64,000 nt of DNA from Mya arenaria (taxonomy: Eukaryota > Mollusca > Bivalvia > Myida > Myidae), in NCBI RefSeq assembly GCF_026914265.1, contig NC_069125.1, positions 66,887,479 through 66,951,478 of the forward strand, in the 5' to 3' direction. Below, piece by piece: positions 2 to 59,100 of this stretch. Both the position numbers and the translations under genes were made by a program. The number at the start of each line of letters is the position of its first letter. Within the stretch, counting starts at the first letter, position 1. The notes beneath the pieces were generated by a model that worked only from the letters and a program-made list of their open reading frames with translations, was not told the origin of the DNA and did not search any database.

Positions 2-1321
2 GATCGAGCGCAGTGTTACGATGGGACATCAAACATGTCGGGGAAATATCGAGGAGTTCAGGCTCTTGTTCGTGAAAGATCACCGTATGCCAATTACGTA
101 CACTGCAAAGCTCATTGCCTAAATCTCGCGTTGGTTCACAGCTCCAATATTCCTTGTGTTCGAACAATGATGTCAATAATTCCCTGGCGACGTTCAATAA
201 CGCATTTCCCGTTGTAGTTCATACGCTTGAAACACTAAATGACGACGGAGATAACAAAGCAGGGCAAAATCTGGCAGGAATACTTTGCTTTGACTTCATT
301 ATAGCATTGATTGTGGCTGAATATGTGCTTAAGTTCCACGGTTGCATTAACAAACCTATTGGAAAAAGATGATAATGATCTATTGCATGCAATTGGTGAG
401 GCTAAGGTCGTCATTCAGCTAATGAATAATGAGCGAAACGACCCAGACGTGCGGGGCGCTCTCTATGAAAAAGCTACAAATAATGCCGCGAAATTTGATT
501 TATTCCCATCGAGACAAAGAAGAGCTGGTAGGCAGGATGTAGATACAGTTTCCGAATATTGGAGAATAACACTGTTCAATGTATTCCTTGACCATTTGAT
601 ACTGGAACTGATGGAGACCCGCATTTTAAGCACCGAAGAACGCCCCGCGGCACAGTATCTTCTGCCAAACCGATTGCCAGGTTTACAAGATGAAATGCTT
701 CCGTCCATATATGCCGCATATGCTCCAGATCTCCAGCATCCATTTGAAGCTTTCGGTAACGAAGTTGCGAGGTGGAGAGTTCGGTGGAATATCGCGGAAA
801 CGAGCAAAGATTTGTACCCGAGTATTTATAGCATTTTCGGAGTACTGTTGACAATGCCAGCGACATTAGCATCATGCGAAAGGTCGTTTACTGTATGAAG
901 CGAATCAAGAACTTTTTGCGGTCGACCATGAGCACAGACAGGATGTCATCTTAAATAAGATATAAATACATTAGCTTCAAGGAAGTGCAGGAAGCTAAAC
1001 TTTTACTGAAGCAAGTGTAGCCGGCCTTTGCTATTAATACATGTAATAATAATTCTGAATACAGTACGGAGAGTTTTTCAATTATCGTTAATTTATTTTT
1101 GGTTGAAAATTTGAACTGCTGTAAAACATATATGCAATATACTTTTAAGCTTTCCAAAAAGTGCAAAATAATAAAATTTGTTTTCCTTCAAAACATGCCT
1201 CAAAAATGCCCCAAAATACAGCTGCGGCGATATAGGATTTCAAAACTATTCGGGGGGGGGGGAGCCGGGGGCCCTAGAACAACGGGGCTTAAACATTAAT
1301 TTTGGCCAAACGACGCCACTG
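2..1321 (+). mobile_element. hAT DNA transposon (ZMYM1-like transposase), 3' part, dead
   Basis: Seen: the first reading frame gives DRAQCYDGTSNMSGKYRGVQ and then YVHCKAHCLNLAL. This is the conserved RNase-H-like core of hAT transposases of the ZMYM1/DUF4371 type. Downstream frames continue with an alpha-helical part (about 311-898) and the hAT dimerisation end LASCERSFTV, followed in another frame by MKRIKNFLRSTMSTDRM. The coding region changes frame at least three times (near 170, 340 and 895), so no transposase can be made. The element ends in TTTGGCCAAACGACGCCACTG at 1301-1321. Read inward this is CAGTGGCGTCG, a typical hAT terminal inverted repeat. The left end lies outside the window. 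A run of 11 G (1252-1262) sits in the 3' non-coding part. Frames and motifs are seen; family assignment rests on remembered hAT sequence. Confidence 0.85.

Positions 1322-11220: not shown

Positions 11221-11221
<1 letters not shown>

Positions 11222-11283
<62 letters not shown>
11222..11283. repeat. (AAT)n microsatellite, LINE tail
   Basis: About 20 uninterrupted AAT units. On the minus strand this is the (ATT)n tail that ends the CR1/Jockey-like LINE lying to its right, so it probably arose as that element's 3' tail. Confidence 0.8.
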
Positions 11284-11284
<1 letters not shown>

Positions 11285-12196: not shown

Positions 12197-15100
12197 TCAT
12201 ACAGTAAATAATGATGATGACTGGAAGAAACCTTGGGCAGGCCAGTGCTTTCTTAGTGGAGACAGTACAAATAGTAAGGGCGTGGGAATTTTCTTAAATA
12301 CAAACATCAATTACAGTTGAAGAATATAAAGAAATAATACCAGGCCGATTACAGCTTCTAAATATCAAAATAAATGATATGAGTATAATAGTTATTAATG
12401 TTTATGGTCCGAATTCAGATGATTTAGAATTTATACAAACTTTAGAAGAACATATTGACCTCTACAAGGATAAAACACTTTTAATAGGTGGTGATGTTAA
12501 TACTGTTTTAGACCCTAAAGTAGATCAACTTAACGGTAACATAACAACGCATAACAATTGCAGGAGACAGCTTAACATCATACTAGAAAGTTATGATATG
12601 TGTGATATATGGCGCGTCAAAAATAAAGACAAACGGAGGTACACATGGCACTCTAATAGCAAACCAACAATTTTTTGTAGACTTGATTACTTTTTGGCAT
12701 CAAATGAACTCTTCAATAAAGTTATCGCATGCAAAATAAAACCAGGTTTTAAATCTGACCACTCACTAGTAAGCATACAAATTAATTTAAATGAAAATAG
12801 CATACAAATTAATTTAAATGAAAATAACCGAGGTCCAGGATATTTTAAATTTAATAACTCAATCCTTGCAGATAACAATTTTCAAAATCAAATCAAGCGA
12901 TGTATAACAGAGATCGTAGAATTAAATAGAGAATCAAACCCAAATACCCTATGGGAAATAATTAAAGGCCGCATCCGTGATGAATCTATAAAGTATTCAA
13001 GCAATAAAAAGAAAACAACAATAGAACATGAAATTTTGAAAAACATTACTAAAATTGAACAAGAACTTCTGGAATCGAACAACGCCGAAATACTGGATAA
13101 ACTTAATCAAGAAAAAGAAAAACTCGATAAAATTAATGAAGAAAAAATAAAAGGTATATTACTACGGTCTAAAGAAGAATGGATAGAAGGTTTTGAAAAG
13201 AACACAAAATATTTCGCTAATTTAGAAAAGAAACGTGCACAGCATAAAACAATCACACAATTAAATATTAATGAAAATACTGAAACTGATAGACATAAAA
13301 TATTAGAGTATGTAAAGTCGTATTATGAATCTTTCTACAGACAGGACGAAAATATAGAAGAATCTATTAATTCACGATTTCTGACAAATATTACAAACAC
13401 TGTTACTGAAGAAAACATGCATCCCGAACATTTATCTGAAACTGAATGCTATAATGCTCTTAAAGATATGAAACTTGATAAAAGCCCAGGGTCTGACGGT
13501 TTGACTGCAGAATTTTACAAAATGTTTTGGAATGAAATAAAAACTTATCTAAAAGCCTCTCTCAATTTTTCATTAGACAATGCGTCATAACACTTCTTCC
13601 AAAAAAAGACAAGGACACAAGTAACATCAATAACTGGAGACCTATTTCCTTATTAAACATTGACTATAAAATAGCTTCAAAAGCAATTGCTAATAGGATA
13701 AAACCCTGCTAAATAATATAATCGGTAATGAACAAACAGGATTTATAAAAGGAAGATATATTGGGGAAAATGTTCGTATATTACAAGAAGCTATTAATTT
13801 TGTAAATGAAAATGATATAAATGGCTCATATTTTTTTCAGACTTTAACAAAGCATTCGACAGCTTAGGTCACAAATTTATGTTTGAATGTCTTTTAATGA
13901 AAATTTAATTTCAGTGAAAATATAATTAAATGGGTTCGATTATTTTATAAAAATGCAATGGCTTGTGTTACCAACAACGGTTATCTTTCTGACTTTTTCA
14001 ACATTAAAAAAGGTGTACGCCAAGGATGCCCGTTATCTCCGTACTTATTCCTTATCTGTATAGAAGCGCTTGTTGTTGAAATCAATACAAACAAAAATAT
14101 TAAAGGTATAAATGTACATAATACATAACTGAAACAAACCTTATTTGCTGATGATGCCAGTTTCCTTATGGATGGAACACAAAAATCTTTCGAAGAGCTT
14201 ATGATTAGTCTAAACGATTTTGGAAAAGTTTCAGGGTTAACATTTAATAAAGCTAAATGTGCAGTTTTACGATTAGGTCCACTTAAATAATAATATGAAA
14301 ATGGTGGTTTAAAAATGCTCAATATATCTATTTTGTCAAAGCAATTAAAGCAAGCTGGGTAAAAAGAATTGTTTTAAACAAACAATCTATATGGGTTAAA
14401 TTATATATGCAAATGACCAAACAGTTGGAGAAGATCTAATTCTTAAAAGTTGTATGGATCCGAAAAGCACTCAAAATCTTAGTTTAAAATCTGTTTTTCT
14501 CACAGAAGTCATACAATCATGGGCATCGTTTACATATAAGACGGATACTGCGATCGTAGCAAAAGAAATTATATGGAACAACAGCAAAATAAAACTCCCT
14601 AATAATAAAACATTTTTTTACAAAGAATGGCATAATAGGGGTCTAAAATATGTCGAACATTTGTATGACTACAGAAAAAAAACTTTTTATGACTTTAACG
14701 ACTTATCGAGACTATACGATCTTGGTACACATGATTTTTTTGAAATACCATGCTTTAATCAGCAGTATTCCTGATGACTGGAAAACCCGGTTGAAAAATG
14801 AAGGCATATCATATAACACACCGACTTACTTTGTAGATAAAATGGAGGAAAATACAAAAATTAGTAAAATAGTCTACAAGAATCTTATTATACAACTTAA
14901 ACCTGAAAATAGAACTCGAGAAGAAAACTGGGAATCTCAATTTGATCTTAACTCTATACAATGGAAAAATGTATACACACAGGCGCTCAAACTAACAATA
15001 GATACGACACTTCGGGAATTTCAATATAAATACATAATGAATATCCTTCCAAACAATGATAAGCTTTACACGTACAATATTGTTGCATCAAGGTTATGTG

Positions 15101-15881: not shown

Positions 15882-17655
15882 AACATTTTCTATTTGCGGA
15901 CGCCATTTTAGGTTATTATCAATATAGATTCCAAGTAGTTTTTGCACAGTCACATTTTCTAATGCTGTTCCATCGATTGTAAGATTTAATTTACTAACTT
16001 TTTTTTGTTTTATATATAGTTCCAATAACCATACACTTGGATTTAGTTGGATGCAATGACATGTTATTTATTTGGCACCAATCGACAACGAGATCAAGAT
16101 GTCGTTGTAGTTTACTTTCAATGATGTTTACATTACTACCGGTTTCATGCAATGTTGAGTCATCTGCAAATAAATCGATGTTTATATTCGTTTTACAAAG
16201 CGCAATGTCATTGATATAGATAAGAAACAGCAGTGGACCTAGCATGGATCCCTGCGGTACTCCTGATGATATTGGAAGCAAGCCAGACTGTATGTTTCCG
16301 ACTTTAACTAATTGTTTTCTATTAGATAAGTAGGATTTAAAAAACTTTATCGAATTTTCAGAAAAATGATACAAGTTTAATTTATGTAGTAGAATTAAAT
16401 GAGCCACTAGATCAAATGCCTTTCGTAGGTCTAGAAAGACAGCACCAACAAATTTGCCACTGTCAATATCTTTTACCCATGCATCTATTAAACTTGTTAA
16501 CGCTGTACAACAGGAATGGTTTTTCCTAAATCCAGACTGTTTAGTGTGTATAATGTTTGTAGAATGGAAGTAATCTTGAACTTGGTTTGCAATGTGCCTT
16601 TCAAATATTTTTGATATTGTTGGCAATATCGAAATTGGACGATAATTACTTGGATCATCTTTACATCCTAATTTAAACAAAGGTAATACACGTGCAGTTT
16701 TCAAGGAGTCAGGAAATATTCCGTTCATGATACTGATATTTATAATAGACGAAATGCATGGTGTGATGAAGTCACCAAAATGTTTAATTACTCTTGGGCC
16801 AATCTCATCTATCCCAGTTGATTTACTTATATCAAGTTTATCAATGATCTGTTTTACCTCAAGTGGTGATATATAATTCAATTCGAACGTTTTGTGCCCT
16901 AATTTAACGTTTAGGTCATATTTCAGTTTACTAAAACGTTCGGGTGTAAAGGGCGTTTTTTTCTATTATATTTGATATATTGGTAAAGTGAATGTTAAGT
17001 TCATTAAAAATATCGAGTCCTCCAGAAACTTCTCTATCACCAATTTGTAGTTGCTCCGGTAAAATTATCTTGCTATTTTTTTCAAATGAGAAATATCCTT
17101 TAAATTCTTCCAGATAAAGCTTGGATCCTTTTTATCCTTCACCGCTTGATTAAAAAATGCCTTCTTACTTTTTGTTAATTAAGGCTGTAATTTCATTTCT
17201 TAATATCTTATATTTGTCGTGTTCACCATTTCTATGGTACTTGTCTCTTTCAAATATCATTGCTTTTATTATATCAGTAAACCAGTTAGGTTGAAAATCA
17301 TGTTTTACTCTTTTTTGCTTAATAGGAGCATGTTTAGATAAAACTTGATTTACAATAGAATAAAATACATTTAAAGCATCGTTCGGATTGACTATTGTTT
17401 CAATCATATCAACTCCTGATGAGATAAGATCATTTTGAAATGATTGTTCATTGAAATTCTTAAAACATCGGTAAGATATCGTTTTGTGATCAATTCGTTC
17501 AAAACATTTGAAATTATTTATCTTATGTCCAGTGAAACATATTGGAAACTGATTACTTAATGACAATGGTGTTACATGAACGTTAAGCACGTTTTTAATA
17601 CAATTTGTATAAATATGGTCAATTATCGTTGATGAATTTTTCATGATAATCATGA
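15882..17655 (-). mobile_element. CR1/Jockey-like LINE, 5' half of the interrupted copy
   Basis: Minus strand. 17653-17165 encodes the end of an endonuclease (NSSTIIDHIYTN) and linker. 16881-15994 is a 295-codon open frame covering the reverse transcriptase: KSTGIDEIGPRVIK, NYRPISILPTISKIFER, QSGFRKNHSC, LDLRKAFD, GVPQGSMLGPLLFLIYINDI and LFADDSTLH. A further block (16025-15885) has KLLGIYIDNNLKWRPQIENV, where the L1-like insertion cuts in. At least two frame changes separate these blocks. The 5' end is truncated inside the endonuclease near 17655. The long intact polymerase frame suggests moderate age. Confidence 0.88.
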
Positions 17656-19000: not shown

Positions 19001-22000
19001 ATGATGGCAACATCTCCGGATTCACATGGTAATTTTTTAAAACCTATTTATAAAAACTGTCAGCTTTTGAAATCTATTCTCACTGATGGTTGCCGTTGGA
19101 ATTTATTTGAATTGATCTTTAAAAAAAGCAAACTGGCAGCATCTTACAGCATGTACAGTACTGTACATAAACTTCTACCAGTTCTGCCATACCATGTCAT
19201 TTGAAACACTTCAGATATTTGGATATTGACATGTGATTTTAATTTCCTCTCCTTTTGCGATGCTATGCGTCCTAGTCTAAAATAATAGACCTGTTATACG
19301 GGATTCTTCCAATCCCTAACGTCTAATCGGGTTTGTGCAAAAACAGGGGAGGGGGGAATATAGAAATAAGATTTACCAAGGCCAAAGTGATCCGATTGTC
19401 GTAAAACTGTGAACCGCAGCCTTGCACCTGCCCTTCATGTATATATCGTTATGTTTAGACAGCATGGAATGGAGAAAAACACATCATAATTATTTGTTGG
19501 ATATTTATTTTTTTCTGTACGGAACTAATATAAAATAACATTATCTGGTAATATGTCTTGTTTTTATTATATTTTATAGACCCAATATGCTTAAATGCGG
19601 AATCCCGACCGGAATAATGACCCACTTATGGTTCAAAACAATTTGTACGTGACAGATTTGCCATATCAAAAAATCGTAAAAAAATCTGTATATGCACAAT
19701 TATTTGGACTACTATGCGTCCATACTCAACTGTGTTTCCCTAGCCAAGATCCCACCTATCCGAGCGCTAAGTATATCTAGCAGACAGATAATACAGGGCT
19801 CGACATTAACCACTGCCCGATTGCCCTGGGCAAGTAATTTTTGCAGGCGGGCAGTAGTTTTTAGAATCTACCTGCCCGATCAGGCAGTAACAAAAAAAAC
19901 TCGTCATAGTGGCGACTTTTCGGGTAAAAAATAGTAGTCCGTACTCTCCTTCTTGGAGAGTATTAATCAAACCGAAACTAATGCACTCATTGGTTGTTGA
20001 CTCGAAAAATCGGGCCAAACGGAGCTCCTCTGACATTTTCATTCGAAACTACGATGGCGAAGACTGCCAAATATTTTCAGATAGAGCTGGAGTAATTCCG
20101 TCTAGATCCGTAGGCCAATCACATGAGCTGCACCAAATCCATATAGCTAACATTCCAGTTAATGCCCTCACAATGTACACAAATGGTGTTTTGACAGTCG
20201 ACACTGTCAAGTTTTTTTGATGTTTCAAACGAAAAACGGCTAAGTCATCCGAGAAAAAGACCAGCTATGAAAAGAAACGAAAACGACGCTGGGTCGAGTC
20301 TTGGGGAAACAATTTTCCTGGACTCAGACACAGCGAGAATGGTCATTTTGGCTATTTTTCGGACTGCTCCAATTTTCGGATGCTCGGTGTTTGGAACTTT
20401 ACGATTTCACTTTACATTGCGATAAATTGTAATTTACTTCAAAATAAATGTAAGATTACAAGGCTAAGATAATAAGAGATTGACTGTTCGTTCTAATAAT
20501 TCAATTTTATTTCATCCTTAATAATTTGAATGTATGTGCTATTAGTTACAAATTTCATGACAACTGATTTATTTCAAATACAGCAAGCCCTGATGTGCAG
20601 GTTGAATCTGGAAATGGGTTTTGATGTGAAGTATAACAACAAAATGAGCCCAAAAAAAATGGGCAAGTAAAAAATCCATTCGGGCAAGTGAAAATGGCTA
20701 GGTGGTTGCCCGAAGGGCAACCAAGTATTAGAATAAGCGTCAAGCCCTGTAATACTGCTTTTATCTGCCAGGACCCGGGACTGTCGGGACCCAGGACCCA
20801 AATTTTAATATCTGATTTACCTACATGCATATGATAGTATGAAAATATTATTATATACGTTATGAATATGCGAGGATGCCGAGGATGTTGTAAAATGTCC
20901 TGTGTAAAAAAAATGCTTAAGTCGCATAGCAGTGGAACAAAATGTCAAGAGTGCCAAAAATGTATTTGTGTACACAGCATTTTCTACCTAAAAATGGGCT
21001 TTAAAAGGACTATAGCCACACAAGATTGGTAATTTGGTTAGATAAATGGAAAGTAAGCGATCAATCATGACATGTACCTGCTACTCACCTGGATAGTATT
21101 TGTTTAAACAGGTCACCATGGGAGTGAGCCAATGGCAATGGGCACGCCCACGAGCCCTGTCAGCCCAGGGTCTGGCCACACCTCCCAGTACCTGCCAAGC
21201 TACCTCCTGGGAGACTCCATGTCACACTCTGTAAGATAAAACACAGATAAACTCCCTGTTATTGGGTATTATTACCATGCATACCATAAACATAAGTGTA
21301 GATCAAAATTATACCTTGTCAATTATTTTAGATGTTCTGCAAAAATACTACAATTAACTGATGATTCATCTGAGTCAAACATATAATGCTTAACATAAAA
21401 AACTACTGCTCATAAAAATTAAAAACATAATTCTACCAGAACCTAGCCATAGTTTTCTGAATTCTTTTTATTTCAGGAATAATATTTTGTGTGATATTTC
21501 TCTGGCCCATTTCAGCCTGTGTCTTCACGGCTGTGGTCTGGTGGGAGTGGAAGCCCCCCACGTTCATCACATAGGCCCAGTTCCCTCACCTCCCAGTCAT
21601 CCAGCCATCATGCTACACCAAGGTGAGTTTGTGTTATGTGTGCTTTTGTGCAGTGAATTTATAGCCGGATCTTGATTTACTTTACAGCAATAATTGGATT
21701 TTGTTTTAAAGTATAACATTTTGCTTTTGATAATTTGTAGACCAATGTTATATCTTATTGAAATTTAAATAAACAAATTAGTAAATTACCAATGTAGACC
21801 TTATGAAGATGGTCTAGAGAGAATTCATCATGATTATAATTCAGGTCAATGGAGGTCAAAGGTCATATAACAATGCAATGTGTCTGTCTCCTACAACTCG
21901 CAATGTCCCATATTTTTAAAGCACTTCTGAAATAGTATTACATTACATAATTTAATGTTCTAGAAACTGTCACATTTTCACACTTTCAAATGGTTAGTAT

Positions 22001-25000
22001 TTTGTTCATGAAAAATTAACATCTATTTCACTATATTTAATGCAAAATGATTGCATGTACTTTTAAAAACGCATGAAACAACATCAAAAACTTGTACAAT
22101 TGTAGCATGATCAATTTTGGATTATGAATAACTTACAAATTTTAATTATGCAACCAAGGCTGGACACAAGTATTCGAGGGAAGGAGAAGGCAGGTGCTCC
22201 ACCAATCAGAAGCCTGCTTCAGACAACAAGCCCTGCCCAATCCGGATCAGCAAGCCCTTTCAGTACACCCTCACAGGTAAATGAAGTAATGTAATGTTAG
22301 TTTTAGTTTATTACTACCATAAATATTTGAAGTGTTCTTTCTTCATAAAAAGTAGGGATGGAAACCGGATACCAAATCGGTATCAAGTATTCGAATACTA
22401 TACGGATACTCGTATCAAATTGTTTTCATAATTAGTAAATTTCCTATTATATGTCATTCACCTTCGGTTTTTTGACATCATTGTGCACTTAATTTATAAT
22501 TCGTTATATGGCAATTTCACTTTTTCATTTATTCTTTCTCAGTCTTAATAATTTATAATGTTATAATCAAAGCTAAACAACTCATTTTACTTCATAAAAC
22601 TCATGATGAATACCACATAAACAACTCACGAATTTGATAGTCACTTCGGCTGAGGTGGTTGCGTGGTTACTGCCACGTCACGTGACGTGCTTTTGAGTTT
22701 GTTATTTATCAGCAGGTTTCATGTTAAATGACGCTTTGATTATTTAATAGTCGATTGTAAATTTATTTCATTACATTGTTTGATTTAATGCAATACCTAC
22801 AATATCTGCGGTGTTTTGTAATGAAGGATATAATTGCGGAAAAGATAAGAAGACAAAAAGACGATCTGATTTTTCTTCATTTACATGTGTGTACTTTTTT
22901 TATTTATCAATAAACTAAACATGTTTACATATCGCATGAAAAATAAAATACACTACACAAAATAAAACGTGAATAAATACTAAATAGGAAATAAATCATT
23001 AATATATTTGATAATTTAATTAAACACTGTACCCACACTACTTTCAAGTCCGAAATGTTCGAATACTTCACAACAGTTTTCATTCGATATCTTTCTTAAT
23101 CGAACGCATGTTCTTGTTCAGAAACAAGATAGCATCCAGCATGTTACTGTTGAGGCGATGATACAAGAATAACGATTAATAATTCAAAACACAATTACAA
23201 GATGCAAATGATGGAAATTTGATTGAAAAGTGAAAAGATAAACAAATTTGTTTTTGTATTTATTGTTCAGATAGCAATAATTTCTTCATGCATATTCATC
23301 AAAAATACGATTGGTCATTAATAGCTTTGATTGCACGACCCTTAACTTGTGATCAGACGGATTAATAATCAATCCGTTTAATATCAACTAGTACCAATTA
23401 GTGTCAATTAAGCACATCTGAGATCATAAAACAACACTTGTCATTGTAAACAAGGTCATAGAACTTCACAGGGTGCTGCACAAGGACACAATATCACGCC
23501 TTGTGCAAACACCCAATTAGCAGACGATTTGTGACACATACCCGCTTCGCGACAGACACTGTTGATCACCTGAAATATTTCATCTGAAAAGTTTTATAAC
23601 AATTGCTATGTCTCAGCTAAGCTATTTTATTGAAATTTTAATTCTTAACGAATATTCGAATACCCATTTTGGTATCCGAATACTTAAGTGATATCCTGAT
23701 ATCCAGATACTCGGATATTCGCTTCCATCCCTAATAAAAAGTTATTGTTAATAATTAGATTTATGTTTGAAAAGTTGTCTCTTCCTAAATTTCAGGAATT
23801 TTGTTTAATGTTTCAGTATTCCAGCAGAAATGCCGGATTATCAACACCAGCCCCTCCCACAACAGGTAGGCTACAGCAAAGTGTTCACACTAGCTTCTTC
23901 CACTACCGGTATGTTACAGTGTTATCTACTCCAGCACCTCCCAATACAGGTAGGATACAGCGTTGTGCACACCATCCCATCTGGAACACGTAGGTTACAG
24001 TATTGTCTACACCATCCCCATCCTTTACAGGTGGGTTACACCATTTTCCACACCAACCACCTCAACAACAGGTAGGTTACAGCACTGTATCATCACCAGC
24101 CCCTCCCAATACAGGTAGGATACAGCGTTGTGCACACCATCCCATCTGGAACAGGCAGGTTACAGTATTGTCTACACCATCCCCACCCTCTACAGGTAGG
24201 TTACACAATTTTCCACACCAACCACCTCCACAACAGGTAGGTTACAGCACTGTATCATCACCAGCCCCTCCCAATACTGGTAGGATACAGCGTTGTGCAC
24301 ACCATCCCATCTGGAACAGGTAGGATACAGTATTGTCTACACCATCCCCACCCTCTACAGGTGGGTTACACCATTTTCCACACCAACCACCTCAACAACA
24401 GGTAGGTTACAGCACTGTATCATCACCAGCCCCTCCAGGGAAGGCCACAGTAAACAGTTCACACCAGCCCCTCCTATTTAAGCTATGTTACAAGGTTCCT
24501 CTACAGGTATGAAACGGCTTTGTCCTCTCCACCCCTCCAGCTACAGGTTGGTTACAGTAAAGTGTTCACACTAGCCTCACCTGCTTCATGTATTTGCCCC
24601 CTCCCAATACTGGTTGGTAACTGCAAAGTGTTCACTCCAACCGCACCCACTACAGGTAGGTTACAGCAAAGTGTTTACTTTCCCCCTCCCAAAACTGGTA
24701 CATAACTGCATTTTTTCACATAAACCCCATCCACTACAGGAAGGTTACAGCAAAGTGTTCGTGCCAGCCTGTCCCAATAAAGGTTGGTTACAGGAAAGTG
24801 TTTACACCAGTCCCTCATAGTACAGGTAGATTACGGCAAAATGTTCACACCAGCCCGAACACTACAGGTGGTTTACATCAAAGTGTTCACACCAGCCTCT
24901 CCCAGTACAGATAAAATACAGCAATTTATTCACACTTCCAATCCCAATGCTGGTAGGTTACTGCAAAGTGTTCACACAAAGCCCTCCCATTACAGGTTGG

Positions 25001-28000
25001 TTACAACAAAAGTGTTCACACCAACCCCACCCTCTTCAGGTAGGTTACAACAAAGTGTTCACACTGCCCCTCCAAATACTGGTAGGTTACTGCAAATGTT
25101 ACACCAACCTCACCCACTACAGGTAGGATACAACAGTGTTCACACCAACCCCACCCACTACAGGTAGGTTACAACAAAGTGTTCACACTGCCCCTCCCAA
25201 TACTGGTAGGTTACTGCAAATGCTACACCAACCTCACCTGCTACAGAAAGGCTACACCAAAGTGTTCACACCAACCCCACCCACTACAGGTAGGTTACAA
25301 CTTACAACTAAGTGTTCACACTGCCCCTCCCAATACTGGTAGGTTACTGGAAAATGTGTTTACACCAACCCCACCCACTACAAGTGGGATACAACAAAGT
25401 GTTCACACTGCCCCTCCCAATGCTGGTAGGATTCTGCAACATCTATATGATATTTTCACAATCAGCTCCAGACAGTTTATTTTATAGGCATACTTTTACT
25501 GAAATTATTGTCTAGTTGTTTAAAAACAGGTTGCATTGATGATACATGTTTATATTGATTTGTTGCAACAAAGATATAGACTATCTGGAGTACACAACTG
25601 GAATTATATATCACTGGTACTTAATACCAGTTTTAGTATCTTTTGAATTAAGTGCTGGGACAACACTTTTTTATGAGCAGGTTTGTCAGCGAACCTGCAT
25701 GAGACTATATACCACACTCCGGACCAGGGTGGACTGGGCGTTTCCAGAGTCTTTATGTCCCCTGCACAGATCGACCCTTTCTATACACAGGGGTATGGAA
25801 ATTTTCAAAGATGCATCATTTAGAGTTTGGACATGAGAGTTTAAAAATGAGCTTATGAAATTAATTTGTTTCTATTCCTCTCAAATCACCATTAAAATTG
25901 TAGAATATTTTGTTTATTGCATGGCTTGTGTTAAGGGCTTCGAGTGAAAAGGTGTTATCTCCTTCGTTTTTGAATATCACATTGAACTTTTCTGCCTTCA
26001 CCCCTCCATGTTCAGCTATTCAATTTATAAATTTTACTTGTGGTCTCGTAAAATAGGGTATCCTGTCCTTTTTACAAAAACAACAACACATTTTGACATT
26101 GTCCTGTCATACATACAGTCATGCATGTAGTCAATACAGGCCACATTAATTTACAGGGAGTCACTCACCACTGATGATTTCCTTGATGAGACATGGATTA
26201 CAGTGTTTGGGTAAGTGACATACACAAATAAAGTTAAAAAAAAAAAATATGGCAGAGGATTTTAGCTCGACTTTTTGAAACACATGTATAAGAAGTGCTA
26301 TTATACTCATCCTTCATCCTTTTACAGTTAAAAGGGAGGTTGTTTTTTTCATCTTTGTCATAAACCAGTCTTTCAATTGACCTGATACGTCACACAAATG
26401 TTCAAGGTCATTCATAAGAAAAGTAAGGCAACTCGTATAAGATCCTCAATACAAATATCGCCCCTGAATGACTTGTTTTAGACATTGACATTCTACCCTA
26501 GTGCTCAGTGCCTTCAGACAAATATGTTACATACCTGGCACTTCTCATTGATCTGAAGTTATGGACCCTGACCCTGGGGCTTTAAACTGTTACTTATATT
26601 GAACTTAAATTTAAGATTAAAAACTAAGTGCTTTGATTGGCATGTATATTTAGCTGACAATTATGCTGAATGGAATCACTGAAGCATTTCTAAGGATAAG
26701 GATAAGATCAATATTGAATACTGGCCCTGGATTTAGAAAGTTTGGTAAAAGTTTTACGGCAAGTAGGGAATTTTGGTCATATCTCAAATACCTTTCATGC
26801 AATTTATATAATAGTTCACTGTAGTGTTTAATTCCATCAGACAAGCAAGCAGATACATGGTTATCATTGTCATAGACAAAGCAGTTTAAAAGTGAAGCAC
26901 TCTGTCTTACTGGCAGCTCCTGTTTAACAGTATCTTTATCTAAGGCTGCATTACATTATCCATTAAAGAACGTAAAGGTATTTTATGACATTAGAAGCAT
27001 ATAACTGTATGCATCTATTTTGTGAGTCTATTTGTTTATTCTACCACATGTATGTTTAATGTTGATACAGATTTCCACCACCTGCAGCCTCCTATGTGCT
27101 TCAACAGTTCTCCCAGTATGGAAATATACTGAAACATGTTGTAAGTATATCATCCGAATACAGTTGACAAGGAAGAACATAATCTTTTATCTTGTGGCAT
27201 TTTATACCTCAACAAATAAAGTTTGAAGGGAGTTATATTGCAGTCACCATACAGTTGGTTTGTCAGATGGGGGGTATGTTGCAAAAAGTCACATTTCTTA
27301 TCAGTTGCTGCAATATTTTAAAGAACTATGGCTGTTTGTCTTGTTTTTGAAACAGTTCAACCATAACTTATTGAGAACTCTGCTTAAAGTATCTATACCA
27401 TCTTGTGCTTTGAATGCTTGTGGGGACAGTTCTCCGACAACAGCAGGAGATTTTTCAGTTTGACAGGTTCTTTAATGTTTTTCTACTTAGATGTATTTTT
27501 GTTATTTTTGAATGTCCTCTTCCTTGTCTCAACTCTTCTTTCAATAGCATGCCTTTAATTTTTATTCCTCTTAAATATCTTAATTGCCATTCAACTATCA
27601 TTTGCCAAGGATTTATTTAGAAAATAAAAGCTGGCTCAGAAGGAATTGATGTAACTAAAATGTATTTACTTTTTGCAAGGTTTGATGTTTCCAAAAGACC
27701 ACTTCTATTGCATGTTTCAGATATCGAGTGAAGGTAACTGGATGCACATTCACTACCAGTCCAAGATCCAGGCCAAGAAGGCCCTCAGTAAGAATGGCAA
27801 GATCCTAGGAAACAACATCATGGTCGGAATCTCCCACTGCATAGACAAGGTGGGCTATTTTTTGGCTAAGTTGAGCCTTGTTTTTAGGATGTAATAATGC
27901 ATCTGTCATCTGTCATTTTTCCATGGTTTAAAGTTTTAATTCCATGATGTTTATTGTCAAGATTTGTCCCTTGCAATGACAAACATGCTTTGTTGCAACA

Positions 28001-28556
28001 AGTCCATGCATTAATTTGAAATGAGTTAACATTGCTATCATTGCTGTGTATACAGAAGGTGATGGGAATTGATCATAGAGAGAAGGAAAATGAGAGCCTG
28101 ATGTTGACCCCGGGTGTCGTCCCCAACCTTGGGCTGGGCCAGGTCACCTCCCCCTCAACTCCAGGACAACTCAAGAACACGCCCATACGCCCCCTGACTG
28201 CCGCCTATCTAGCTGCAAAGAGTGAAAATGAGGTAGTCCATTTAATTTTTTTTTTCATTTTGATTTTACCTTATAGAACCATAACTTATATTAGGTATAA
28301 ACCTGTATAATGGCATTACATAGTCTCCCCTGTCTTACTCTGGAAATATATTTTCTTTCTATTCGTCACATTTCGTTCTGTGTTGGAAATCAATTCATGA
28401 AAACTTTGCTAAGGTAGATATTCATGCTTTGTACACTGTACAAGGATATGTCTGACACAACTTTTACTACATTTGCAGGTGATACAGAGCAGCCAAGCGC
28501 CAAGAAAAAACACTGGTTTTATGAGTAAAGCAATGGAATACATGTTTGGATGGTAG
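19001..28556 (+). CDS. NUP35: nucleoporin NUP35 (Nup53/MPPN family), 346 aa, 11 exons
   Basis: Role (known): scaffold nucleoporin of the inner ring of the nuclear pore; binds NUP93, NUP155 and NDC1 and touches the membrane. Exons: 19001-19028, 21112-21230, 21516-21622, 22159-22276, 23817-23865, 25681-25792, 26157-26210, 27071-27140, 27721-27849, 28056-28232, 28479-28556. All junctions are GT-AG and phases agree. Landmarks: [16 protein letters not shown] near the N-terminus; [16 protein letters not shown]; the atypical RRM from about residue 178 ([62 protein letters not shown]); [10 protein letters not shown]; and the C-terminal amphipathic helix [10 protein letters not shown] at the stop, the membrane-binding end. 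The human protein is 326 aa. The first exon codes only MMATSPDSH; it fits by phase and position and is the least certain exon. Introns 1 and 4 contain hAT-type elements. Intron 5 begins with a minisatellite made from the exon end. Confidence 0.93.
19794..20749 (+). mobile_element. hAT-type transposon remnant in NUP35 intron 1
   Basis: Ends CAGGGCTCGACATTA (19794-) and, read inward from 20749, CAGGGCTTGACGCTTA; the first 11 bases differ at one place. TAATA stands directly outside both ends, so any target duplication is short or eroded. Inside, about 20225-20390 reads [19 protein letters not shown] with Cys/His further on. This is like the RW...FPWL zinc-finger start of hAT proteins. The motif GGGCAAGT/TTGCCCG recurs near both ends (19829, 20660, 20688, 20706). 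A 103-codon frame at 19909-20220 has no known domain. There is no transposase core, so the copy is an internally deleted, non-autonomous remnant. Ends are seen; family is inference. Confidence 0.6.
22353..23733. mobile_element. non-autonomous hAT-type element with 8-bp target duplication
   Basis: 1,381-bp element in NUP35 intron 4. It starts TAGGGATGGAAACCGGATAC and ends with CGCTTCCATCCCTA, which is an inverted match of TAGGGATGGAA. It is flanked by a perfect direct repeat ATAAAAAG (22345-22352 and 23734-23741). Sub-terminal GGTATCAAGTATTCGAATAC and TGGTATCCGAATACTT also form inverted matches. There is no transposase-like frame. An exact 8-bp duplication with short inverted ends is the hAT signature; lack of coding makes it non-autonomous. 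Confidence 0.78.
23845..25440 (+). repeat. 42-bp minisatellite containing the NUP35 exon-5 splice donor
   Basis: Units of about 42 bp of the type CCAGCCCCTCCCAATACAG / GTAGGTTACAGCAAAGTG / TTCACA run for 1.6 kb. The first unit is the last 21 bases of NUP35 exon 5 plus its donor and following intron. The left part (23930-24420) also has a 165-bp higher-order period: GTAGGATACAGCG at 23950, 24115 and 24280. About 17 units contain CAGGT(A/G)GG-like donor sequences by eye. Because 42 and 165 are multiples of three, open frames run through many units (for example 24003-24323 and 24784-25167). These are not taken as genes. Confidence 0.92.
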
Positions 28557-29470: not shown

Positions 29471-29479
29471 ATGTCATTT

Positions 29480-29661
29480 CTACAGCAAAACTGTTGTGTG
29501 TTTCACATTCTGTAGAGTGGTATACAGCAAAATCATTGTGTGTTTCACATACTGTAGAGCTGTCTACAGCAAAACTGTCATGTGTTTCACATACTGTAGA
29601 GCTGTCTACAGCAAAACCGTTGTGTGTTTCACATACTGTAGAGCTGTCTTTAGCAAAATTG
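29480..29661 (+). repeat. 42-bp minisatellite with hairpin units
   Basis: Four to five units of AGCAAAACTGTCATGTGTTT + CACATACTGTAGAGCTGTCT + AC. Each unit contains CTGTAGA-GCTG-TCTACAG, a 7-bp stem with a 4-base loop. The first unit is more diverged (ATTCTGTAGAGTGGTATACAG). The 14-codon period leaves an open frame at 29428-29667, taken as a by-product. Confidence 0.88.
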
Positions 29662-53142: not shown

Positions 53143-56100
53143 TTAATGCGAAAGGAAGTCGAAACAGTTGATACGCTTCACCCCCGTCTCTAAATCAGTA
53201 ATCTGCAGTGTGAACTCTGTGCCACCAAACTGCATTTCATTGAGAAGTCTATGCCTTGCCTCCTCAAGAACAATGCTTCCTAGCTTAAAGCAGGATTTCT
53301 CCGTAACATACTGCGGGTCTGGGTCTGAGGATGCATAAATACCAACTCCTTCGGCAACGTCGAATGTATCGGATATAAAATCCATAGACACGACAGCATT
53401 CACTGGCACTGCTTCACCGGCTCGTACATATATTTCAAACAGATATCTACATTTGTACCTTCCGTTCTCAAAGACTCTGTACTTTTCGGGGTGAACCCCG
53501 TCAACAAATGTGTTGATGATCTCAGTTCCATATGTGTATTTGCTGATACGGGACGTCACTATGTTCGGGTTGTGGCCAAAAAGGACTGCACCCTTCACGA
53601 CAACTAGACCAGAATCATTTGGAATAATTATCTTCTTATCTAGAAAAGTTTCTTTTATCTTGTTCTGTACTATTTCAGATTCTGCAAACCCACCAACAAG
53701 CAGCATCGTATCAATTGATCGAAAGTCATTACCTTTGAGGATTTCCCGTACATGGGCGATTGTTGTTTGAACAGATTTATCAAAAAAGCCTTTAAAAACC
53801 TCTGCGTCGATCAGGATCTTGTCTCTCTTGAAATCGACCTTGCCAGCATGACCACTTTTTCTTACATCGTCCACGAGTAGTCTCCCCTTCCTCGTCTTGT
53901 AGTTTGACACCAATGATGCCGGAATTCTCATGGTAATCATCCCGGACTTGTTGCTGGTAACTGTCCGCTTCTTCACCTCAAACTCTCTCATCATGTCCAG
54001 AAAATCACCGGTGAACTCCTTCTGGTACTCGGTCATAAAGCCTTTTCCTACGAGTGCCTCGAGTAGAGCCTGAAACTGTGCGTCCACCTGAGTACCGCCC
54101 CATGCGCCACCGCTGGCCTTCGCCACTTCTGTCAGACTGCCGTCACCCTGTACCTGATGCACAGTTATGTCTACGGTCCCACCTGTAAAAAGAAAGCAAT
54201 AAATGAGAACTTTCTGCTCATCTGAACAGGACCGGCTTGGGTGAGGTATGAGGATCGTTGAAGATGCGTCCAGCGTCGTCCACAATTTGTTTGGAACACT
54301 TTAGACGCCACAATCCTGACCCACTCTGTTCAGAAGTTTAACGACTAGTATATCCATTATGGGTAAATCTAGGGAATTAAATAAAGTGTCAACATCTAGA
54401 ACCCGAATCTCCTAGTCTGAGTAAGAATGATGCTGTTGTTTTTAAATGTACTGGTAACCAAATTTGATTACATGTCTTGTGCGGGAAAATGTATCATTAG
54501 ATCAATTGTTCAAACACCTTATAAGCACACCAATGACCACACTTTCTACCCAATCTGCATTAAAAACAAGTGTGCGTGCGTGCGTGCGTGAATTCTTAGC
54601 CAAGTCATGTTTAAAATGCCTTGTGATGACTGGGGGCAAATTATCTTCTGACTTTTTATGAAATTTGGTGAAAATGTTTGTTTTCCTTAAACTGTTTCCT
54701 AGGTCAGTTTCGACTATGGGTTATGTCAGATCAATGGGTTGGGTACATCGTCAAAATTTCGTTAAAACCGTGGCTACATTAAATTACCAACCTTCATGAG
54801 AATGTAACATATGGGTTAAGTTTGATAACATGTCATGTTACTTAAAAATGATTCACAAGTTCAAAATATCGTTAACATGCTGAAGTAATTTTCAAAATGG
54901 CCTCCTAGAACAAAACACACTGACATTCAGCTTTACACAATTCACACATGTATACATACTATTATTCAAATATCATCAAAAACGATAAACAACAAGTCAT
55001 ATAAAGTATTAATGAATAATTAAACATGTTAATTATGTTAAACACATGTATACAATTCACACATGTATACTATCATTCAAATAGCAAAAAAAGGGTCAAA
55101 AATAAATCGTCATATGAAGCAGTAATGAATAATAAACAGTGGTAAACACATGTATCATTTCAGTGAATTTCAAGCACTTACCGACAAACACCCAATTTAT
55201 TTTACAATAAGTGAGAAATATAATAATGAATATAACGTTTTAACAAATTGTTTAAATATATATTCAGTCGGATTTACTAAGTCTTTACTAGAAATGAACT
55301 CTTAATTAACAGGGGGTCCAGCGTGTTTTGTGTTTTCCGAATTTTGTGTGAGGGAAATGTGTGATGCGGAATAAAATGGCGGTGTTCAAAGAGATTTTGG
55401 TATTTTGGGAGAATATTGTCACCTGGTAAGTAAGTTTTATCACTTTTCTCGCAATATAAATACGCCTACCCGGAGGCCACACGTGTAAGCTTCTATCAGT
55501 TTTTTAACCTATGTTTCTGTTTCTAGAGGCATTAACAAAAAAGTTATTGAATGTATATAAGCTGAACGATTGCTTGTTAACAAAGTGAAAATAGAAAATT
55601 ACGTGACTCGAAACTGTGTTTTTAGTCAAAGTACACCATTATTGTACCTATTCTAGCTATTTTTCATTGATTTTTTGCCTATTTTTTCTTTTCGACGGTT
55701 AGTGCACTTACATGGCACTATATACGGCCGATTTTATTTTGTGATTTAAATTAAACTTCCCATAATTGTAGCAAACGATGAAAATGTGTGTCGCGCATTC
55801 TTTTTGTGACTTAAAGGCCAAGGTCACACTTGCAGGTAATTGTCCTAAATATTTATTTCATTCTTAGCCATACACTTTAAGCTAAACTGAGCACGAAGTA
55901 CTCAAAGTGAGCTCTGGTGATCGCCCAATGTCCGTCGTCCGTCATCCAGCGTCAACATTTTAAATCTTTAAACATCTTTTTCTCTGAAACCGCAAGACCA
56001 AAACCCTTGATATTTGGTATGCAGTCTCATGTAGTGATCCTTTACCACGATTTTTCAAATCATGTACCTTGGGTCAAAAATAGCCACGCCCAAGGAGCCA

Positions 56101-59100
56101 CAAGCTTTCAATATACAAAATGTACTTATAAAAAATCTACAAAATGTACTTATAAAAATCGTCTTCTCTGAAACCGCAAGGCCAAGATTTCTTTGGCATG
56201 CAACCTCAGTTAGTGGTCCTTTACCAATATTGTTTAAATGTTGTCCATATGGTCAGAAATGGCCCCGCCTCGAGAGGTCACATGTTTTCTGTATATTTAT
56301 TAAATCAAATCTTTGGAGAACGTCTTCTCTGAAACCGCAAGACCCAGCCCTATACATTTGATATGCAACCTCATATAGTGGTCCTTAACCAAGGTAGTTT
56401 GAATCATCTACATGGGGTGGAAAATGGCTCTGCCACAGGGGTCACAAGTTTTCGATATTCTTTGATACTTTCGATGAAACAATTTTGGAAATCTTCTTTT
56501 CAGACAACCGCACGGCCAAGACTTTTGTTAACTGGTATGGAAAGATATGTTATCTAGTTAACCACTGTTACTGCTAGGAGCCAAAAGTGCATTAATAGAT
56601 GAGTGGTAAAACGAATCTTTTCTAGTTAGCTAGTTATTATGTTACATACTAAGTGGAATTCGCAAAACCATGCTTGAAGCGAAAAGTGCAATTATAGATC
56701 AAGTGGTAACACGAATATATCTAGTCAACCAGTTAGTATGCTACTTATAAAGTGGAATTCGCAAAACCATAACTAGATAACCAGTTACTGCTTGAACCTG
56801 TTATAGTTGTACAGCTAAAAAAGGTAATAGGTGGCATTTCTGGGCATTTTCAAGTCTGTTTTAGTCTTATGATATTTATTTTACCAAAAAAGTAACACGT
56901 ATATTAACTAGTTAGCTAGATAATTATCGCGAACATTAAGTGGTTAACACGAAACAATTCGCAAACGTTAACAGATTATCTTACGGCAGTTATATTTATG
57001 CCACCATATGAATCTTCGCAAAGTTTTCAAATTGCGGGTAAGAAATTGTTCACAGTGGGTTGAGAAATTAGTCATGTGCCCCTGATTTATCAAAAATGAA
57101 GATATTGCCATGATACTTTTTCACTATGCACATTCACCCTTATTTCTATGCCATTAATCACATTATATTTATCAGATGCTTGAAAAACACTAAACGTGTG
57201 TACCTCCAAGATCAAGGACTATGTAACACTTTCCAGGCTGGAAAATGTCCATCCCTCCCGATTTGGTGAGACGTTCTACCGGCAGTGTTTTACACCAGAA
57301 TGAGGCTGCCTCAGGTTCCAAGGCTAGAATCAGACGGTCATTCCGTAAACCTCCCTTTCAAAAGAAATTGAAAATAATTATGTGGAAGCTAGATTTAAAA
57401 ATATGTTTCCAAACAATATAACGCTTTATTAGTCGCGTGTTTTAAACATCTCATTCGACGTGTTTACCATTTCAGCAGCCCGTCGCATGAACTGTTTTGC
57501 AGAATCGTTCCAGATGGCAGGTAGAGTGAGAACCCAGTGGATGTCGCCCTCCTCGATTTCAGGCACGCGTTTCAAAAGCGTCTGAAAGAGGTGCCCGCGC
57601 AGAAAGTTGATGGCGGCGGAGAAGACAGTCAATGCCTCCAGTGGCTTCTTGTGCTCGTCGTCGAGCAGTGTCTTCCGGGATAGCGCCTATATTGAGAAAA
57701 ACAAAAACTGCAAAACATTGTGCGTTTACACTTGTTTCAAATAGTTCAACTAGCAAGAAGATGACATTCAACAAAGAGTTCAGAATTCTACGTTTAGTAT
57801 ATCTAGATTAGAAACTAGGATCGATAAATGCATGTAGATACCCTCCTTGGTACCTCATTGTTGTGAAGCATCATTTTGAAGCGGCGGAAGTAGAACCAGT
57901 CTGCGTGGTGGCCGTCCTCAGCCAGTTCCGAGTACTTGTCCTCCGCCTCATACCCGAAACTATGGAACACTTTCCCAGGCGTGAACAGCACGCTCGTCGG
58001 CGCCTTAAACACATGTGAATATCGTGCCAATGTTGCAAATATGTTCTATGATACAACGTACATGTACTTTAAATCATCAATTTAAATATTCACCTTTAAA
58101 TAAAAAGGGCATATATAGGTTTGCAGATGTATGTTGGTCTGTCAATTGGTTGGTCGGTAATCAATGATTTTCCGAATGCTAATTTTAAAACAACTGGAGT
58201 CAAAACATTGAACATGGTAGGTTGCAATTAAGCAGTAAATGACCCCTTTCGTTGTGGGAATCAGTTGACTACACTGTATATGCCACAGCCAACAATAGTT
58301 TTGAAAACATCTATGTAAGCCTTGATCTAGTGATATCGTAATTCACTGGAAGGGTGTCCTTGACCGTTAGATGACCTATCGTTTAGGGTGCCAGTAGGCC
58401 AAAGGTAAAGGCCGTGACCAATACCAGTTTTCAATCTTTGTCCGAACATGAATTATGGTTTAGCATAGGACAGTGAAACGTCACTGATTTGTTGTAATTA
58501 ATCAGTAAAGTTCATGAATCTGATTGTATTTTGGGTCAGTAAGTCTAGGTCAAGGCCATTGTGAATGTTGTTTAAAATACGCATTCCGCACAAACTGACA
58601 TGAAGCATAAACAACAGGCTGTATTTGACCAGATATATGACCGTGTTCGTTTTGTTTCGACAACTAAAGTGCTAGCTATATACATTATCTTTCGAGTAAG
58701 GTTCTCCTTGACCAGAAGATGTTGCGTATTGTTCTTAGATCAGTGAATCCAGCACAATTTTGAGCAAAAAATGTTTTACCTAGAATCCTATAACTTAAGT
58801 GATACAGTGGTACGGTTTGCTTTCGAATAAATGCACTTAAAGTTTACGATAAGGCGAAGGTCAATGTAACAGTCAGTGTTGTTTGAAATACTGATATGTT
58901 GTTTCAATATGACAAACTGTAGCTGCGTGAGCCAAAGGGCAAGATCATGGACAACGTGATTGTGTCAATAAATTAATTAAGACTTATGGTATACATACCT
59001 TAAGGGATATGTGTCCACCGCCTATCCATGTATTGGTCTGTATTTTGGTCTGATCGCTGGCATACTCGTGCGAAAATGAGAAAGCGTAACCGGAATACGT

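Follow-up and report, generated by a model that had tools for sequence, protein, structure and literature searches.

The minisatellite of the human gene IFI6 has a unit of 12 bp and proceeds in in-frame steps. In 1995, Turri, Cuin and Porter (Nucleic Acids Research (NAR) 23:1854) reportedly described this repeat, in the gene also called 6-16 or G1P3, as supplying multiple splice donors. Their paper is cited in PMC3618361, PMC2915984 and PMC2572611. According to PMC4526556, the normal IFI6 donor and two downstream repeat units act as donors, giving three mRNAs. Here we describe a related arrangement in the bivalve Mya arenaria, found in a window of 64,000 nucleotides (NCBI RefSeq assembly GCF_026914265.1, contig NC_069125.1, positions 66,887,479 to 66,951,478 of the forward strand). 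An imperfect tandem array in the nucleoporin gene NUP35 starts within exon 5, includes its 5' splice site and fills most of intron 5.

Three other systems may be set beside the locus. The known recursive splice sites, or ratchet points, are single sites in long introns and have T-rich tracts. The gain of introns through tandemly duplicated segments that contain AGGT (the Rogers model, ATP2A1) is described in PMC4974935 and PMC3629103, together with the Schizosaccharomyces genes SPOG_01682 and SOCG_00815, in which a 24-nt unit is multiply repeated around gained introns; PMC3629103 names AGGC as proto-splice site. The DDX3Y minisatellite MSY2, described in PMC3039753, lies in the promoter and is not a boundary repeat. 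Judged by title, none of the eight papers listed for NUP35 with tandem repeats and introns concerns such an array, and a literature search for recursive splicing combined with minisatellites returned nothing.

The first unit of the array is itself an exon/intron boundary, as the sequence-only reading of this stretch had proposed. Unit 1 consists of the final 22 exon 5 bases, ACACCAGCCCCTCCCACAACAG, which encode TPAPPTT plus one base, and the first 18 bases of intron 5, which open with the donor GTAGGC at 23866. Of the 40 bases in unit 1, 37 match the consensus of units 2–39 (20/22 in the exon part and 17/18 in the intron part). Elsewhere in the window, the best ungapped match of this type reaches 23/40 on the + strand and 22/40 on the − strand. 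Repeat homology is absent from the 27 bases that precede unit 1 (6/27 match), and the array therefore has its start in the exon and extends across the splice junction. We consider it fairly probable, at roughly 60%, that the minisatellite was founded on the junction of exon 5 and intron 5, that the exon-proximal donor is the productive one, and that the others are tolerated, mostly non-productive pseudo-donors.

The features on which the argument draws are listed below. All splice sites are predicted from the sequence, and they were scored with weight matrices built on general metazoan frequencies, which may not be those of the host. A slash marks the splice junction.

21114–28556, + strand: ten coding exons of NUP35 (E2–E11), assembled manually on the basis of reading frames and splice sites
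23817–23865, + strand: predicted NUP35 exon 5, 49 nt, coding for 16 residues and one base
23844–25440, + strand: minisatellite of 39 units of ~42 bp, consensus TTCACACCAACCCCTCCCACTACAGGTAGGTTACAGCAAAGTG, from wraparound alignment and Tandem Repeats Finder (TRF)
23844–23883, + strand: unit 1, the coding unit of the array (exon 5 end and authentic donor), from its consensus match
23866–23871, + strand: predicted authentic 5' splice site of exon 5, CAG/GTAGGC, score 8.74, which preserves the NUP35 frame when joined to exon 6 at 25681
23924–24418, + strand: four-unit, 165-bp higher-order repeat in three copies (units 3–14), from copy and lag-4 identity
23950–23955, + strand: candidate donor of unit 3, CAG/GTAGGA, score 8.65, adding 84 nt (28 residues) in frame
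24419–24630, + strand: decayed middle of the array (units 15–20) with several donors lost, from unit alignment
25015–25440, + strand: three-unit higher-order period (~127 bp) in the right part of the array, from the TRF period of 127
25681–25792, + strand: predicted NUP35 exon 6, acceptor TTTTTTATGAGCAG/GT, score 7.59, coding for 37 residues

In the proposed sequence of events, a segment across the junction (22 exon bases and about 20 intron bases) would have been tandemly duplicated downstream into the intron. The array would then have grown by ordinary minisatellite turnover, including recent duplications of four-unit blocks at its left. Because the unit contains a 5' splice site, the intron would have gained a row of donor-like sites. 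The donor of unit 1 would have stayed the productive one, with the remaining donors as tolerated by-products. Any low-level use of downstream donors would mostly break the reading frame; unit 3 would instead insert its additional residues in frame.

The anatomy of the array is consistent with such a history. TRF reports the interval 23837/23844–25440 with periods of 41, 43, 85, 124, 127 and 165, and the intronic part of the array takes up ~87% of the predicted intron 5 (~1.8 kb). The copies of the 165-bp block are identical at 154, 156 and 159 of 165 positions in pairwise comparison (93–96%), and units four apart in this region have an identity of 0.954. In the middle, units 15, 16 and 19 are without a GT at the donor position, which is present in units 17, 18 and 20. 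The three-unit period on the right is weaker, with a lag-3 identity of 0.856 over units 28–39. Higher-order blocks and a decayed middle are typical of minisatellite turnover, to which we would attribute them here. Unit 1 ranks fourth of the 39 units in identity to the leave-one-out consensus (0.925), after units 33, 36 and 21, and this closeness would fit a founder held still by coding constraint.

Transposon remains elsewhere in the window raise the question of whether the array might belong to a transposable element as its tandem core, or be a dispersed satellite, and lie here by chance. This seems extremely improbable: blastn finds no further copy of the array in the window, no inverted repeats of at least 14 nt flank it except for one palindrome in intron 4, and the homology extends into a coding exon. 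A comparison of an exact 20-base unit pattern with viral_contigs gave 0 matches and is uninformative. The array was also considered as one long coding exon and rejected, as its stop-free stretches (up to 133 codons) change frame and its unit lengths are often not multiples of three.

Donor-like sites are far denser in the array than around it. A GT is kept at the donor position in 32 of the 39 units, 21 of which have the juxtaposed AG/GT. The row of candidate 5' splice sites described in the sequence-only reading is thus present, and longer than the ~17 further donor-bearing units given there, since 31 units downstream of the first keep the GT. Scoring each unit places 10 downstream donors above the authentic one. 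Sites with a score of at least 8 number 20 on the + strand of the array (12.5 per kb) and 2 on its − strand; outside the array the + strand has 0.40 per kb, and the − strand over its full length has 0.48 per kb, so that the + strand of the array is enriched ~30 times over the + strand elsewhere.

The phases of these sites are mixed. Unit spacings range from 38 to 49 bp; among the 34 measured, 10 are 41 bp, 9 are 43 bp and 7 are exactly 42 bp. The 31 downstream GTs fall into all three phases (14 in phase 1, 9 in phase 0 and 8 in phase 2), at odds with the idea that a 42-bp period keeps every donor in the same phase. When exon 6 starts at 25681, the frame is intact for units 1 and 3 and broken for the other 30 of the 32 GT-bearing units, which makes unit 3 the sole frame-keeping donor downstream of the first. 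If the frame of exon 5 is extended into the array, it stays open until a stop codon at 23991. As only 2 of 32 donors keep the frame, the array could not in general adjust exon length without frame shifts, and the suggestion that it might is not supported.

The same numbers could be read as a regulated decoy: competition from the downstream donors would draw splicing away from unit 1, the resulting transcripts would be frame-shifted and degraded, and array length would thereby set the output of NUP35. The dense, partly better-scoring donors and the frame breaks expected from nearly all of them are in line with this, and the near-identical 165-bp blocks suggest that array length may vary among individuals. 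We nevertheless regard the decoy as quite unlikely, for three reasons: the donor columns lack a selection signal, units have decayed, and the donors have no special accessibility in the RNA.

The nine donor columns match the consensus with a mean of 0.832, compared with 0.785 for all columns. Random sets of nine columns reach this conservation in 9.4% of cases, and several other columns are equally conserved. Because the donor columns are not clearly better conserved and the phases are mixed, we see no sign of selection keeping the donors working; they appear to be retained about as well as the rest of the unit. A shielding of the donors by RNA structure was considered and rejected. At a first look, the donor 9-mers had a median unpaired probability of 0.0, compared with 0.019 for 9-mers across the array. 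The effect is gone against controls in which the donors were fixed and the remainder of each unit was shuffled: the mean log10 value is −3.80 versus −3.73 (standard deviation 0.14), with 20 of 60 controls as low. Per base, the values are 0.331 versus 0.309, and 57 of 60 controls lie at or below the observed one, which makes the donors, if anything, more open.

The units also resemble acceptors. The 25 units with an AG have a median acceptor score of 4.88, and 4 of these units exceed the acceptor of exon 6; the median of 254 background AGs is 0.16. This, together with the 21 AG/GT units, could indicate an array of dual sites acting as both acceptor and donor, either in stepwise recursive splicing or in the occasional inclusion of 42-nt microexons. 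Single-unit exons would be in frame and free of stops in 5 of 20 cases. We consider this reading very improbable. The polypyrimidine tracts of the units are C-rich rather than T-rich, and most of their scores lie below those of the real NUP35 acceptors. The intron is only ~1.8 kb long, for which stepwise removal is unnecessary. Among possible unit-exons of up to 300 nt, 16 of 130 are in frame without a stop and 114 break the frame.

Since 21 units carry AG/GT, joining donor 1 to the AG of such a unit would recreate a donor at the junction, and mis-splicing inside the array could in this way be corrected by a second step. A combined version of these ideas would be a splicing rheostat of variable length. 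Here, dual AG/GT units would compete for U1/U2 factors, the number of units would set the ratio of productive to frame-shifted, degraded NUP35 mRNA, and each join would regenerate a donor. We think it very unlikely that the array works in this manner.

The gene on the + strand is NUP35, judging from its predicted product. Moving the start of exon 6 from 25750 to 25681 raised the match of the joined exons to the PDB chain 7r5j_F0 ('Nucleoporin NUP35') from 232 bits (E = 1e-67, first model) to 240.5 bits (E = 3.1e-70, corrected model), in both cases over nearly the whole length. The first model also matched the Pfam family RRM_Nup35 (E = 3.2e-32). No initial exon carrying the start codon was identified in the window. 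The left edge of E2 is approximate, placed by hand and at least 2 bases off, and its 'acceptor' score of −20.5 is meaningless.

The phase is 0 at the end of exon 4, and a start of exon 6 at 25681 requires phase 1. The start of exon 6 at 25750 was dropped for its acceptor score of −4.45, in favour of 25681 with its higher score, correct phase and better protein match. Exon 6 contains several potential acceptor AGs in differing phases (25681, 25690, 25728, 25748 and 25750), some of which would restore the frame after phase-2 donors or after skipping of exon 5. The acceptor of exon 5 at 23817 scores 7.76, and an in-frame alternative upstream at 23796 scores 10.64 and would give an exon of 70 nt. 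A start of exon 6 at 25728 (score 3.67, phase 0) would put skipping of exon 5 in frame. An exon 5 from 23796 and an exon 6 from 25728 or 25748 are the remaining alternatives to the model.

The gene model bears on the order of events. It is possible that an intronic minisatellite came first and that the end of the exon moved into it, in which case TPAPPTT and the present donor would derive from the repeat unit. The array begins in the exon ~27 nt past the acceptor at 23817, as expected from such a capture, and the closest match of unit 1 lies far off in the array. The human NUP35 chain (7r5j) is only weakly aligned here, with low posterior letters, and the alignment does not establish the age of the exon end. 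However, in the best model exon 6 depends on exon 5 for its phase, and skipping exon 5 with exon 6 at 25681 leads to a stop at residue 190 of 320. In the alignment of the corrected model, the linker length with exon 5 also looks similar to that of the human chain. On balance, we find the capture unlikely.

Several observations weigh against a founding junction with a single productive donor. Unit 1 is closest to the distant unit 36 (0.88) and not to its neighbour unit 2, whose own nearest match, to unit 10, is only 0.70. The ten better-scoring downstream donors (9.77 or 10.27, compared with 8.74 for unit 1) would be close enough for the splicing machinery to use, and unit 1 is therefore not certain to be the only donor in use. 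The frame outcome hinges on the acceptor of exon 6, and a weak acceptor at 25748 (score 0.10, phase 2) would fit the phase of donors such as those of units 2 and 4. The donor block is conserved slightly above average, and weak selection on it is possible.

The locus offers a natural test of how the spliceosome settles on a single donor when dozens of others that are as good or better lie within 1.6 kb. It bears on how far the expansion of a splice-junction minisatellite is tolerated in the gene of an essential nuclear-pore component. If the length of the array varies, the effect of donor number on splicing could be read from existing RNA data. If unit 1 alone is used, the array would be a neat but ordinary tolerated repeat.

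A second array with an exact 42-bp period lies at 29479–29658, ~0.9 kb past the NUP35 stop codon (4.3 copies, 86% matches). Its unit starts with CTACAG and nearly ends with CTGTAG, an inverted pair. Kinship with the array in intron 5 was considered and is not supported: 3 of 200 shuffled tilings attain its score of 19, yet scores of up to 25 occur at unrelated places in the window. A tandem duplication at 56160–56453 (1.8 copies) has a period of 165 bp, the same figure as the higher-order block of intron 5, which is probably a coincidence. Remains of non-long-terminal-repeat (non-LTR) retrotransposons are found at 12298–13587 (+) and 15997–16962 (−), with Pfam matches to Exo_endo_phos_2 endonuclease (1e-6) and RVT_1 reverse transcriptase (3.1e-30). 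The open frame at 311–895 (+) matches the dimerisation region of hAT transposases below the cut-off (E = 9e-4, 19.4 bits versus a cut-off of 21.4). An open frame of 385 codons at 53146–54300 (−) has only a sub-cut-off Pfam match, to BcrAD_BadFG; by eye, it resembles ATPases of the HSP70/HSPA12 type, a tentative name that Pfam does not confirm. A perfect (AAT)21 microsatellite occupies 11221–11284.

Among the known systems, recursive splice sites share with the NUP35 array the juxtaposition of acceptor and donor, AG/GT, seen in 21 of its 39 units. They differ in being single sites in long introns, whereas here 21 such sites with C-rich tracts lie in one intron of 1.8 kb. Intron gain by tandem duplication likewise involves a proto-splice site in tandem repeats, with one unit giving the GT and another the AG. 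There, the units are exonic and a new intron is made, while the NUP35 unit is half intronic and the intron was already present or was merely lengthened.

IFI6 is the closest counterpart. The NUP35 unit is ~42 bp long, with mixed phases and downstream donors that would nearly all break the frame, unlike the in-frame steps of IFI6. The human minisatellite lies at an exon/intron boundary and its units give donors, and both a boundary-spanning unit and multiple donor consensus sites are found here. The gene and the organism are different, and the use of the donors is known for IFI6, whereas those of NUP35 are candidates predicted from the genomic sequence. The sequence-only reading, which knew of no description of an exon-boundary satellite in a nucleoporin gene, was too strong in its claim to novelty, as a minisatellite with multiple splice donors appears to have been described in human 6-16/IFI6 in 1995. 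The kind of arrangement is already known; within the literature searched, what is new at this locus is the gene, the long unit, the mixed phases and the dual AG/GT character.

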